Source of the DNA: Clostridiaceae bacterium
Lineage (GTDB): Bacteria > Bacillota > Clostridia > DSM-8532
DNA: 64,000 nucleotides
Direction: 5' to 3'
Assembly: GCA_012521705.1 (NCBI GenBank)
Contig: JAAYLX010000042.1
Coordinates: 1-64,000 of the forward strand
Positions 13,767 through 55,234 of the stretch are shown in pieces. The notes below the pieces were generated by a model. The model did no database searches, was not told where the DNA came from, and was given only the letters and a program-made list of their open reading frames with translations. The stretch's first letter is position 1. Every line of letters begins with the position of its first letter. A program made the translations under genes and the position numbers.

Positions 13767-13948
13767 ATCCTGTCATCCTTTGGAGTTATTGCATATAACA
13801 TCATATGTAATTTTATAAGGACAGGTTCCCTGTTAGTCTGTAAAAGGAAGGTATATTGATTCATGTCAGGCTGTTCGGGTAAACTATATAAAAGTGTGTT
13901 TTCTAAGAAATGATAAAAGAAAACACTCTTATTGTTAAGGTAAGCAAA

Positions 13949-13983
13949 AAATGCGATGTAGACTGCTACGTCGCGTTTGTATT
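13949..13983 (+). promoter_or_regulatory. Stem-loop in the lpd leader, attenuator-like
   Basis: AAATGCGATGTAG (13949-13961) pairs with CTACGTCGCGTTT (13966-13978) with two G-U pairs; U-rich tail TTTGTATTT. Confidence 0.4.
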
Positions 13984-14005
13984 TAAGGAGAGGGAGGAAA
14001 AATAC

Positions 14006-15478
14006 ATGTCAACCGGAACTGCTGTTGAAAGAGATAAGAATATCTTGGCCGAAAGTGAAAGAACGGAAAACCAGAATATTATTGATGCGGAGGTTGCAAT
14101 TATTGGCGGCGGTCCGGGAGGATATGTGGCCGCAATTAGATGTGCACAGCACGGGCTTAAGACTGTTTTGATCGAGTATGACAGATTGGGCGGGACATGC
14201 CTGAACAGAGGATGTATTCCTACAAAAACATTGGTCTCTGTGACAAATTTTATCTCAAATCTGAAAAATGCTGAAAAATACGGTGTCTCCATACCTTCCT
14301 GGGAGTATTCTCTGGAAAAGATAAGGAATAAAAAGAACGAAATTGTAGATTCCCTGGTACAGGGAATCGAATTTCTTATGAAAAAACATAAAATTGAGGT
14401 AATAAAGGGCAAGGCGGTTATTGAGAAAGAAGGCATTCTTGCTGTGGAAGGTACCGAACGGAAAGTAAGATTTGGAAAGCTTATTATTGCAACCGGGTCC
14501 AAAGCGCAGAAGCCCCCGATTCCCGGGGCGGATTTACCAGATATTCTTACAAGCGATGAATTATTGGAACTTACAGATATTCCCGAATCTCTTACTATCA
14601 TAGGAGGAGGAGTCATTGGCATGGAATTTGCATTCATCTATTCGGCTTTTGGCTGCAAAGTCCATGTAGTGGAATTCCTGCCCCAGATTCTCAATATGCT
14701 TGATACAGACGCTGCCTCTGCCATTAAAAGAGCAGCCAGACAAAAGGGTATCGAGATATATGAAGCCTCCAGGGCTCTGAGTATTGAGTCGGCGCCTGAC
14801 GGCAAAAAAGTAGTGAATATTGAGAGAAAAGGTAAAACAGAATCCATCACAACTGAGAAAGTCGCAATAGCTGCGGGGCGGAAAGCGAATCTTGATTCAA
14901 TTGATCTTGATAAATTGGGTGTCCAATTGAACGATAGGAAAAACGGTATTAAGGTAAACCAAAACATGCAGACATCCAACCCTTCTGTCTATGCCATAGG
15001 GGATGTTACAAACCTGTCCATGCTGGCTCATGCGGCATCAAGGCAAGGAATTATTGCTGCAGACCATATCGCAGGTATTGAAAACAAGGAATGCTTTGAC
15101 CCTCACCTGATTCCAAGTGCCATATTCACAAGTCCCGAGATTGGCCATATAGGTTATACGGTCAAAGAGGCAAAGGAAGAGAACAGGGAAGTAATTACCG
15201 GAAAGTTCCCCCTTGGCGCAAACAGTAAAGCCGTGGCCATGCAGGAGGCAGACGGATTTGTAAAAATTGTGGCCGACAAGGAGACAAGAAAAATTATTGG
15301 GGCAACTGTTGTTGGTGCGGAAGCGACAGAACTTTTAAGTCTTGTGACAAATCTTGTTACCGCACAAGTCAGCCTGGATGAGGCTGATAAAGTAATTTAT
15401 GCGCACCCGACGGTTTCCGAGGCAATTTCTGAGGCCATCCTTGACGCAGATGGCAAAGCAATTCATTTCGGAAAGTGA
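14006..15478 (+). CDS. lpdA: Dihydrolipoamide dehydrogenase-type FAD oxidoreductase
   Basis: AIIGGGPGGYVAAIRCAQ, GGTCLNRGCIPTKTL redox-active disulfide, YAIGDVT, HPTVSEAISEA C-terminus; RBS ggagagggagg before ATG 14006. Confidence 0.92.
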   Translation: MSTGTAVERDKNILAESERTENQNIIDAEVAIIGGGPGGYVAAIRCAQHGLKTVLIEYDRLGGTCLNRGCIPTKTLVSVTNFISNLKNAEKYGVSIPSWEYSLEKIRNKKNEIVDSLVQGIEFLMKKHKIEVIKGKAVIEKEGILAVEGTERKVRFGKLIIATGSKAQKPPIPGADLPDILTSDELLELTDIPESLTIIGGGVIGMEFAFIYSAFGCKVHVVEFLPQILNMLDTDAASAIKRAARQKGIEIYEASRALSIESAPDGKKVVNIERKGKTESITTEKVAIAAGRKANLDSIDLDKLGVQLNDRKNGIKVNQNMQTSNPSVYAIGDVTNLSMLAHAASRQGIIAADHIAGIENKECFDPHLIPSAIFTSPEIGHIGYTVKEAKEENREVITGKFPLGANSKAVAMQEADGFVKIVADKETRKIIGATVVGAEATELLSLVTNLVTAQVSLDEADKVIYAHPTVSEAISEAILDADGKAIHFGK

Positions 15479-15560
15479 TACGTCTGCCATACTGTTCTGT
15501 CTATGACTCGTTCGATCCTGGAAAGCTATGTGAAGTGCAAATCAGGATAACTGTGTTGTA

Positions 15561-15760
15561 CAAGTGACATAGTCTTTTCGCGTCCTCGGCTCAGAAAGTT
15601 GCTAAGGCTCAATGCTTGCTCTCTTGGGGTACGCGGGCGAACTTGCCATCCGGGCAAGCGCCGCTTAATCGACGTCCTGTCGATTACCCCCAATCGAGCT
15701 TCGCATTTCGCCAGCAACTTTAAACTTCGCCTGCAAATTGCTTAAAGACTTTGCCACTTG
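15561..15760 (+). repeat. Dispersed foldable element, copy 1 (imperfect 17-bp terminal inverted repeats)
   Basis: Left CAAGTGACATAGTCTTT and right AAAGACTTTGCCACTTG; shares GGGGTACGCGGGCGAACTTGCCATCCGGGCAAGCGCCGCT and other blocks with copy 2. Confidence 0.85.
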
Positions 15761-16042
15761 CGCATGAACATTAGTTATCCAACTTTTCACCGCTGAATAT
15801 GCTTCGTGTCAGACGGCCTCAATCGGGCTGCAGTTCTGCATTTAAACATGTACATACTCTGCTTGAAACAGGTCAAATTTTACTGATTTTGTTTGAAAAG
15901 TCCGGAATGGCATGCCCTTCTACGAAAATAACAAAAAAATTCTAAAAATTTCGTAATAATTCGACAAAATGCTTGATTGTTTTCAAACTGAGTTTAGCAT
16001 AAACTTTTGATATCAGTTCTTTTTTTTAAGAAAGGTCCGGCT

Positions 16043-51859: not shown

Positions 51860-51906
51860 TTTTTTGATTGTTTTCTTCTAATATCTTTATATTTGTGGGG
51901 TTTGAT

Positions 51907-53592
51907 ATGAACAGCTCAATTAAGAAAACAATAAGAGAAAAACTTTTATTTATATACGGCAATAATTCAAACTTCGATATAGACGATACCATGAACAAGA
52001 TTGAAGCGATTATTCACAAATACAGGGATATTAATGTCCCGTCAGGCTTTGTTGATGAAAAAGATGCAATATTAATAACTTACAGCGACAATCTTATAAG
52101 GGAAAATGAATATCCCCTTGCCACACTAAAAAAATTCATGAAAAACTACGTAGGGGACAGAATTACATCAATTCATCTTTTGGCAATGTTTCCCTATTCT
52201 TCGGATGACGGATTTTCAGTAATTGATTACCGAAGCATTGATCCGAAATTGGGAAACTGGGAAGATATTCGGAAGTTGTCCCGGGATTATAAATTGATGT
52301 ATGATGCGGTTATAAATCATGTTTCAAAAGAGTGTCAATGGTTTCAGGAATATCTTAAAGGGAACAGAAAATACGAGGGTTATTTTCTTGATTGCGACCC
52401 GGGTAAAGATTACTCTGAAGTTGTTCGACCACGCACTACGCCTCTCCTTACCAGATTTAGCACAATAAATGGTGAAAAACATATATGGACGACATTCAGC
52501 GATGACCAGATAGATCTGAACTTCGGTGAGCCTGAAGTGCTCCTTGAGATAATAGATTTACTTCTCTTCTATGCGCAGAATGGGGCCAAATATATCAGAT
52601 TGGATGCAGTAGGTTTTCTTTGGAAGGAACTGGGCACATCATGCATCCATCATCCCAAAACCCATGAAATTGTAAAACTCATTCGCCTTGTGTTAAACAG
52701 TGTTGCAGGAGATGTAATAATAATTACCGAGACCAATGTTCCGCATGAGGAGAATATAAGCTATTTCGGCAATAATGACGAAGCCCACATGGTATACCAA
52801 TTCCCCCTTGCACCGCTGGTACTTTATTCTTTCATTACTGAGAGCGCAGTCAAGCTGAGTGATTGGGCATCTACAATTGACGCATCCTGTGGTGAAACTA
52901 CATATCTCAATTTTCTTGCTTCCCATGACGGGATAGGTTTGCGCCCTGTGGAGGGAATTCTCACTGAAGAAGAAAGGAAAATGATGATCGATACTGTTTT
53001 GGCAAGGGGAGGAAGAATCTCATATAAACTTAACCCTGACAATAGCCGAACACCTTACGAGATGAATATCAATTACCAGGATGCCTTGTCACCTTTAAGT
53101 GACAGTGAAACCAACAGACTTATGAGATTCATGGGAGCTGAGACCATACTGATGTCACTGGTGGGTGTTCCTGGAATATATATCCATAGTTTACTGGGTT
53201 CCCGCAACTATTACAAAGGCGTTGAGGAAAGCGGAATTAACCGCAGGATAAACCGGGAACAGTTAAATTATGAAACTCTTATTAATGAACTTGATTCTAA
53301 TACGCATAGGGCGAGGGTTCTTAATGAGCATCTGAGAAGACTTGAAATCCGAAGAAATTGCACTGCTTTTTCACCGAAAGCCCGGCAGAAAATACTGAGG
53401 TTTGATGACAGGGTATTTGCTGTGCTGAGAAACAATGAAACGACAGGAGAAAGAGTGCTGGCGCTCATAAATGTTTCCTCCGATACCGTCAGAATAAACA
53501 CTAATTATTCGGGTATTGATCTTCTGACAGGAATTGAGGTTTCAGGAAATGTCGAAATCAAGCCATTTGACTGTATGTGGATCAAGTGTTGA
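51907..53592 (+). CDS. GH13_18-type sugar phosphorylase (sucrose/glucosylglycerate phosphorylase-like)
   Basis: FSDDQIDLNFGEPEVL, AKYIRLDAVGFLWKELGT, IITETNVPHEENISYFGNNDEAHMVYQFPLAPL, LASHDGIGLRP. Confidence 0.85.
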   Translation: MNSSIKKTIREKLLFIYGNNSNFDIDDTMNKIEAIIHKYRDINVPSGFVDEKDAILITYSDNLIRENEYPLATLKKFMKNYVGDRITSIHLLAMFPYSSDDGFSVIDYRSIDPKLGNWEDIRKLSRDYKLMYDAVINHVSKECQWFQEYLKGNRKYEGYFLDCDPGKDYSEVVRPRTTPLLTRFSTINGEKHIWTTFSDDQIDLNFGEPEVLLEIIDLLLFYAQNGAKYIRLDAVGFLWKELGTSCIHHPKTHEIVKLIRLVLNSVAGDVIIITETNVPHEENISYFGNNDEAHMVYQFPLAPLVLYSFITESAVKLSDWASTIDASCGETTYLNFLASHDGIGLRPVEGILTEEERKMMIDTVLARGGRISYKLNPDNSRTPYEMNINYQDALSPLSDSETNRLMRFMGAETILMSLVGVPGIYIHSLLGSRNYYKGVEESGINRRINREQLNYETLINELDSNTHRARVLNEHLRRLEIRRNCTAFSPKARQKILRFDDRVFAVLRNNETTGERVLALINVSSDTVRINTNYSGIDLLTGIEVSGNVEIKPFDCMWIKC

Positions 53593-53611: not shown

Positions 53612-53818
53612 GAACAAGTGGCACAGTCTTTCTCACGTCCTCGGCCCAGAAAAGCTGTAAGGCTCAATACTTGCTCTCTTGGGGTACGCGGGCGAACTTG
53701 CCATCCGGGCAAGCGCCGCTCACTCGACTTCCTGTCGATCGACCCCAATCGAGCTGCGTATTTCGCCGAAAGCTTTGATCTTCGCCTGCGGATATTTTAA
53801 AGACTGTGCCACTTGTTC
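53612..53818 (+). repeat. Dispersed foldable element, copy 2 (perfect 20-bp terminal inverted repeats)
   Basis: GAACAAGTGGCACAGTCTTT (53612-53631) and AAAGACTGTGCCACTTGTTC (53799-53818) are perfect reverse complements; interior shared with 15561-15760. Confidence 0.92.
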
Positions 53819-53962
53819 TAATCGATGTCCTGTCGACCGCCTTAATCGTGTTTATAATTTACCAACATCTCTTAACCTTCGCTGTTGATTTCTCAATAGG
53901 CAGAGCCGTTTTTGCTAAACAGCTTCCTGAACTTAGGACGTGAAAAAGGCAGATCCTCTCAA

Positions 53963-55234
53963 TCAGAGCTTTGTAATTATAAAATTATCATCTAAAAGCG
54001 CCCAGTTCTGCGGGAACGGATAGCCCAGCGCCCAATAACTGATTCCCCTTAAGTCATATTCCTTTACCAAATCGAATTTTGCCTGCGCACTTCGGGCATC
54101 CTCAAACCAGACTTCATGGCCCCGGCCCTGCTCATCAACATATCTGAAAAAGGGGGATTGACTTACCGGGTCAAACTGGATTACCGCGCCATATCTGATT
54201 GCTCTTCTAACAGCCTCCTGATTGCTGAAAGTCTCTGCTTCCTGCCCGCGCATGTGGGGAACAAGCCAATCCCTGGCATATATCTGGAACCCTAATAAAA
54301 TTTTATTTTTAGGGATAAGAGTAACCGCATAATCGAGGACCCGCCTCATTTCATTAATTGGTGATATGGCCTGGGGCGGACCTCCCCGCCAGCCCCATTC
54401 ATAGGTCATGAGAACAACAAAGTCTGCGATCCTTCCATGTGCTTCATAATCATGAGCCTCATACAGAAGGCCTGCCTGCTCGGTGCTTATTTTTGGAGCC
54501 AGTGCGGTGGATACAAAATAACCCTCTCTGTGCAGGCGGCTTACCGCTGTCTCAAGAAAGTTATTGTAGGCTACACGGTCAGCAGGAAGCACATTTTCAA
54601 AGTCTATGTTCAACCCCCGGTAGCCCTTTTGCCGCATAATCCGGACAATATTATTAAGCAGGCTCTCAATTATCTGCGGGCTGTTTAAAACAACGCTCGC
54701 AAGATTCTCACCTCTAGCTGTGGACGTGAAATTAGTTATAGACATCATAGGAACAGCACCGACAGATATGGCTGCCTGTATTGCAGGTACATCCTCAATT
54801 GGCTGAAGGTTTCCGTCCTCCCTGATAAGATAGGCGAAAGGACTCAAGTATGTCAAATACCTGCCTGCATCCCTAACAATTGGTGCTGCCTGCTGACCCA
54901 ACATATAAATATATGCGTTTACCTCTATAACAGGTCTGACTTTTTGCGGGATTCTCAACACATCACCCGGATAGATATAAGCCCCGCTGTCAATGGAATT
55001 TGCAGCAGCAAGTTCGTCTGCTGAAATTGCGTACATTTGTGCAATGCTCCATAGTGATTCGCCCGGCCGTACTATATGGAACAGAACAACACTCGGAATA
55101 ACGAGAGCCAGTCCCGGAACAATCTGGCTGGGACTGGGCAGTTCATTTACCTGCATTATGGATGAGACAGTCACACCGTATGAGCTGGCAATACCAAACA
55201 GGCTTTCACCAGGACTTACAACATGAATGAACAT
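53963..55234 (-). CDS. Two-LysM GH18-type spore cortex/cell-wall hydrolase (YaaH/SleL-like)
   Basis: LysM MFIHVVSPGESLFGIASSYGVTVSSIMQVNEL and LFHIVRPGESLWSIAQMYAISADELAAANSI; GH18 GYRGLNIDFENVLPADR, VLMTYEWGWRGGPPQAISP. Confidence 0.93.
   Translation of the reverse strand: MFIHVVSPGESLFGIASSYGVTVSSIMQVNELPSPSQIVPGLALVIPSVVLFHIVRPGESLWSIAQMYAISADELAAANSIDSGAYIYPGDVLRIPQKVRPVIEVNAYIYMLGQQAAPIVRDAGRYLTYLSPFAYLIREDGNLQPIEDVPAIQAAISVGAVPMMSITNFTSTARGENLASVVLNSPQIIESLLNNIVRIMRQKGYRGLNIDFENVLPADRVAYNNFLETAVSRLHREGYFVSTALAPKISTEQAGLLYEAHDYEAHGRIADFVVLMTYEWGWRGGPPQAISPINEMRRVLDYAVTLIPKNKILLGFQIYARDWLVPHMRGQEAETFSNQEAVRRAIRYGAVIQFDPVSQSPFFRYVDEQGRGHEVWFEDARSAQAKFDLVKEYDLRGISYWALGYPFPQNWALLDDNFIITKL

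Follow-up and report, generated by a model that had tools for sequence, protein, structure and literature searches.

TwoAYGGAY (RF01731, clan CL00106), catalogued among candidate RNA motifs (PMC2864571), carries two apical GGA-loop hairpins on a long stem, and Bacillaceae-1 (RF01690) is an Rfam model spanning only a tip of twin hairpins with GUCCUG/AUCCUG loops. A 2014 motif analysis predicted CsrA binding by TwoAYGGAY and by reverse-complement Bacillaceae-1 (PMC4333381). Few papers name TwoAYGGAY and, in incomplete literature coverage, none was found that treats it as mobile. Among mobile repeats, bacterial MITEs are short, non-coding sequences with terminal inverted repeats and a stable fold (PMC10969869). 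IS1272 (IS1182 family) targets stem-loops, inserts downstream of genes and shows tandem duplication of its left end; it encodes its own transposase and replaces the target stem-loop without duplication, while whole-stem-loop duplication is one pathway in its published model (PMC5678879). The BOX and SPRITE repeats of Streptococcus pneumoniae are modular structured repeats enriched between convergent genes, BOX having paired terminal repeats and SPRITE lying near 3' ends (PMC3049150).

The feature studied here occurs twice in a 64,000-nt stretch of clostridial DNA (the window, Table 1). It is a single long imperfect palindrome closing on a conserved twin-hairpin apex, and we consider it probably a MITE-like, non-autonomous hairpin repeat that targets terminators and has a tip homologous to TwoAYGGAY/Bacillaceae-1. 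A sequence-only reading of the window had described copy 2 as a 207-nt element with perfect 20-bp terminal inverted repeats, had placed three inner helices within it and had pointed to copy 1, 38 kb away in the same orientation. The sequence check bears out all of this, with the inner helices at the positions given. The homology that this reading saw running past the right end of copy 2 resolves into a decayed second 3' half of the element followed by an inverted left end. The RNA fold of copy 2 is far stabler than its shuffles (-99.8 kcal/mol versus -58.6 +/- 4.0, z = -10.4).

Table 1. Positions of the two element copies, their parts and their gene neighbours in the window
Feature	Position	Strand	Remarks
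Element copy 1	15558-15763	+	206 bp; imperfect arms
Apical hairpin 1, copy 1	15642-15658	+	
Apical hairpin 2, copy 1	15669-15683	+	TCGAC-GTCCT-GTCGA
Pyridine nucleotide-disulphide oxidoreductase gene	13910-15478	+	stop codon 79 bp before start of copy 1
Element copy 2	53612-53818	+	207 bp
Left arm, copy 2	53612-53631	+	perfect 20-bp inverted repeat versus 53799-53818
Right arm, copy 2	53799-53818	+	pairs with 53612-53631
Apex-bearing stem, 5' strand, copy 2	53673-53685	+	
Apex-bearing stem, 3' strand, copy 2	53742-53754	+	
Apical hairpin 1, copy 2	53697-53713	+	CTTGCC-ATCCG-GGCAAG; minus-strand loop CGGAT
Apical hairpin 2, copy 2	53724-53738	+	TCGAC-TTCCT-GTCGA; minus-strand loop AGGAA
Decayed additional 3' half of element	~53821-53910	+	about 75% identity
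Additional left end, inverted (first ~40 bases)	~53919-53957	-	
Alpha-amylase-domain gene	51868-53592	+	stop codon 19 bp before start of copy 2
LysM and glycosyl hydrolase 18 gene, convergent	53963-55234	-	to right of copy 2

In the own genome (2.25 Mb in 59 contigs, Clostridia), BLASTN, a search that the sequence-only reading had proposed, returned 31 matches, about 20 of them near-full and the rest fragments, and a covariance model returned 23; 18 full copies share pairwise identities of 79-95%. With the full covariance model, divergent full-length relatives were found in 5 of 13 congeners tested and in 2 genomes from a second genus of the own family (G004, G005, G007, G011, G012, G028 and G031). 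Arms and ends vary among these species, with pairing preserved through compensatory changes. Placement was assessed for 62 copies from eight genomes of the own family. All resolved copies are intergenic and nearly always lie shortly downstream of a gene. Of the 47 copies for which both neighbours could be resolved, 22 lie between convergent genes, 24 between co-directional genes and 1 between divergent genes, counts that are approximate since the gene calls come from a simple codon score; convergent placement is enriched relative to the gene pairs of the window, 3 of 48 of which are convergent (Fisher p = 6e-6). Public genome contigs yielded one matching locus, in a Clostridiaceae MAG, on the same contig as G012. 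Plasmid and phage collections held no match to own-genome or G314 copies, and viral contigs gave no match to the core pattern; four viral-contig matches to a 17-base end pattern were judged to be chance. The genomes searched are mostly draft assemblies, in which copies at contig ends may be lost.

Several observations argue that the element moves. In a tree of the copies, sequences cluster by genome (9 label changes versus 32.5 in shuffled trees), which fits within-species amplification or concerted evolution. At a gene that we take, by eye, to be ychF-like, the gap to the upstream neighbour contains the element in the own genome and is empty in G004, whereas on the downstream side it is G004 that has the element and the own genome that has the empty gap. 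The sequence-only reading had suggested looking for empty sites and target duplications; flanks within the own family gave no clean or convincing target duplication. Left-end units occur in tandem in own copies and resemble the IRL duplication of IS1272 (PMC5678879). A GGGGCTGTCTCAAAA...TTTTGAGACAGCCCC outer hairpin surrounds the core in G007, G005 and G011, and repeats of a different type, GCGGCAATCTC...GAGATTGCCGC, surround the elements in G028 and G031 (L072-L113). At L130 (G005:C210) the inner element seems inverted relative to its outer GGGGCTGTCTC arm. At L119 (G007:C31:1-2366) an internally deleted copy and its GGGGCTGTCTC outer hairpin are directly followed by an apparent group II intron 3' end, presumptively assigned by eye and without a model. 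Class C introns have a known preference for terminators, which the L119 arrangement fits.

A scan of the contig ends of the own genome found no transposase with matching ends. An ISL3-type transposase/IS at one contig end (L196, G000:C14:1-2000) was rejected as donor, its ends differing from those of the element. The intergenic location, hairpin form and clustered modules of the repeats would also suit a REP/BIME-type element mobilised by a RAYT (Y1/HUH) transposase. This origin is disfavoured and very improbable, given that Y1_Tnp (PF01797) had no match in the own genome or G012 in a search that did match in sister genomes, that the repeat is ~206 bp long, and that relatives have target duplications.

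These duplications, along with exact element ends, were found in remote relatives detected with an apex model. Of 399 genomes sampled from across the phylum, 16 matched this model at E<=0.01, a patchy presence in which several matches were judged to be chance. G541 has five ~263-bp copies, each with the same terminator-like hairpin on both flanks (5/5), and exact direct repeats span 12-19 nt between a copy's own flanks versus 4-8 nt between mismatched flanks. G556 shows 4-bp duplications (ACTA, ATAT, ATAA, TTTT) at 4 of 5 ~272-bp copies, and its copy L162 lies inside a terminator-like stem-loop. The target duplications in both genomes show that these relatives have moved and target terminators, and their position at intrinsic terminators lies beyond what the sequence-only reading could see. 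Outside the own family, full ~340-bp copies number about 14 in G314. At least 24 matches, most of them to the apex, were recorded in each of G406 and G407, six in each of G541 and G556 and three in G676; G225, G409, G185, G424 and G460 have single or few copies. The twin loops in G185 are visible by eye and were not confirmed by the stem scan. Weak R3 matches in G748, G529, G432, G450, G466 and G791 folded without the architecture and were not counted. In G676 a T-box leader (L176, 1693-1931) lies near an element copy.

The proximity of copies to stop codons and their location between convergent genes could instead reflect a bidirectional terminator or mRNA 3'-end stabiliser, retained for its function at gene ends. 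In keeping with this, the GGGGCTGTCTCAAAA...TTTTGAGACAGCCCC arms also occur solo behind genes, as terminator-like hairpins, in G007, G001 and other congeners. However, termination requires neither multi-branch internal loops nor conserved GGA/TCC loops, own copies have no consistent T-run in their arms, and in G541 the terminator-like hairpin pre-exists and is duplicated, so that we regard retention for this function as unlikely. The preferred reading, a mobile repeat, shares with bacterial MITEs the terminal inverted repeats, the absence of coding capacity, the stable fold, the many short, dispersed copies and, in relatives, the target duplications (PMC10969869). It resembles IS1272 in its stem-loop targets, its insertion downstream of genes and its left-end tandem units, and differs in that IS1272 encodes a transposase and leaves no duplication (PMC5678879). 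With BOX it shares paired terminal repeats, with SPRITE the placement near 3' ends and with both a modular, structured make-up and enrichment between convergent genes; BOX is built of boxA/B/C modules and not of a twin GGA/TCC apex, and the likeness is drawn without a claim of shared sequence (PMC3049150). Against the preferred reading, and unlike in a classical MITE, the end sequences vary among lineages (CAGAGTGTCGACAAA in G541, TGATGTCACTGCAAAAA in G556, GTGCAAGTGGCACAG in the own genome), whereas the apex is conserved.

The conservation of structure is seen in compensatory change. Among the 18 own copies, 18 of the 67 pairs have changed at both positions and are still paired (covariation score of 0.161 versus 0.094 +/- 0.006 for shuffled and <=0.052 for slid alignments); among 29 copies from seven genomes 26 of 48 pairs are compensated (0.419 versus 0.171 +/- 0.009 shuffled and <=0.099 slid); and for the apex alone, in 19 sequences that include a second bacterial family, 12 of 17 are (0.590 versus 0.197 +/- 0.022 shuffled and <=0.120 slid), scores to be taken as evidence and not as probabilities because the structures were drawn from the same alignments and the copies are related. 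The part conserved across families is the apex, two hairpins with xTCCx loops (GGA on the opposite strand) whose stems are rewritten among lineages while the loop TCC is retained. At least one plus-strand xTCCx hairpin is present in 84 of 88 copies. In G007 a CGCTATGCGAAAGTTTTCGCATTGTCCGAGGCA-like sequence stands in place of the apical hairpins in L105, L106 and L107, which form a separate clade in the tree. In L082 and L142 (G004) and L116 and L121 (G007) apical hairpin 1 is interrupted or marks the point of truncation, as if its loop were a hot spot of breakage or insertion. A mobile element and a structured RNA had been offered by the sequence-only reading as alternatives, an interpretation that is partly supported: dispersal, clustering by genome, the occupied and empty locus and the target duplications in remote relatives support mobility, and covariation shows strong conservation of structure.

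A match to a known Rfam family, which would have counted against novelty in the sequence-only reading, exists only at a distance. Neither window copy reaches any gathering score. In a permissive search of 4227 families, the best hit of copy 1 was TwoAYGGAY (RF01731) on the minus strand, at 23.9 bits and E 0.1, followed by Bacillaceae-1 (RF01690) on the plus strand at 19.2 bits; copy 2 matched neither at E<=10. RF01731 scores 24.5 bits on L004, below its gathering threshold of 43 bits, which is passed on the minus strand by copies from G541 (51.8-60.7 bits) and G314 (45-51.9 bits). The family-wide model R2 connects G314 with the own family (E 7e-9), and G314 in turn passes RF01731, so that a series of significant links supports homology of the apex. 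The window element is accordingly filed as a remote homologue of TwoAYGGAY and not as a member: the apical arrangement is alike, but the full element is longer and window copies score at most 23.9 bits. Bacillaceae-1, likewise a twin-hairpin motif, hits this apex on the other strand, although its model covers the tip alone and all matches here (17-24 bits) fall below its threshold of 35. The homology of the apex to both families is a further point that the sequence-only reading had not reached.

On the minus strand GGA lies in hairpin loops, as in CsrA-sequestering sRNAs, which raises a different explanation, that the copies are regulatory genes and not mobile DNA, their transcribed minus strand acting as a decoy whose two GGA loops would capture a CsrA dimer. 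Nearly every copy has GGA in an apical loop of this strand, the own genome encodes CsrA, the minus strand is the stabler fold in 44 of 50 copies, and binding has been predicted for TwoAYGGAY and reverse-complement Bacillaceae-1 (PMC4333381). Co-directional copies more often have the GGA strand as sense (26 versus 10, p = 0.011), a count that comes from heuristic gene calls and non-independent copies. However, mismatches of the G.U and A.C kinds occur in nearly equal numbers (55 versus 43 cells), so that no transcribed strand stands out, and CsrA does not follow the element across the own genus, being present in 4 of 6 genomes that carry it and in 5 of 7 that lack it. At least 20 dispersed copies, target duplications and occupied and empty loci point to mobility. 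We therefore hold a decoy family to be a doubtful account, if a slightly better one than the terminator or stabiliser.

For the mobile repeat, a transposase supplied in trans may recognise stem-loops and insert the element at terminators in an IS1272-like manner. Read-through transcripts would then fold into a giant hairpin, the minus-strand form displaying two GGA loops, which would likely be what a CsrA-type RNA-binding protein or the mobility enzyme recognises. Capture of CsrA by these loops is plausible, though CsrA binding is inferred with less strength than mobilisation in trans, and the two roles are compatible.

A broader proposal, which we put forward tentatively, is that a single superfamily of mobile hairpins that seek out terminators spans the Bacillota, and that TwoAYGGAY and Bacillaceae-1 each depict its tip, read from opposite strands. 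The maintained core of this superfamily would be the twin-loop, protein-binding apex and not the transposon ends, and its movement may carry CsrA-type binding sites, already formed, to gene 3' ends. Two long-unexplained Rfam motifs can be re-read as likely parts of a mobile element, which would provide a concrete route for the spread of structured RNA-binding sites among genes. Insertion of the repeat seems to duplicate an entire intrinsic terminator, an alternative pathway that the published IS1272 model allows, and the proposed CsrA link in Clostridia becomes directly testable.
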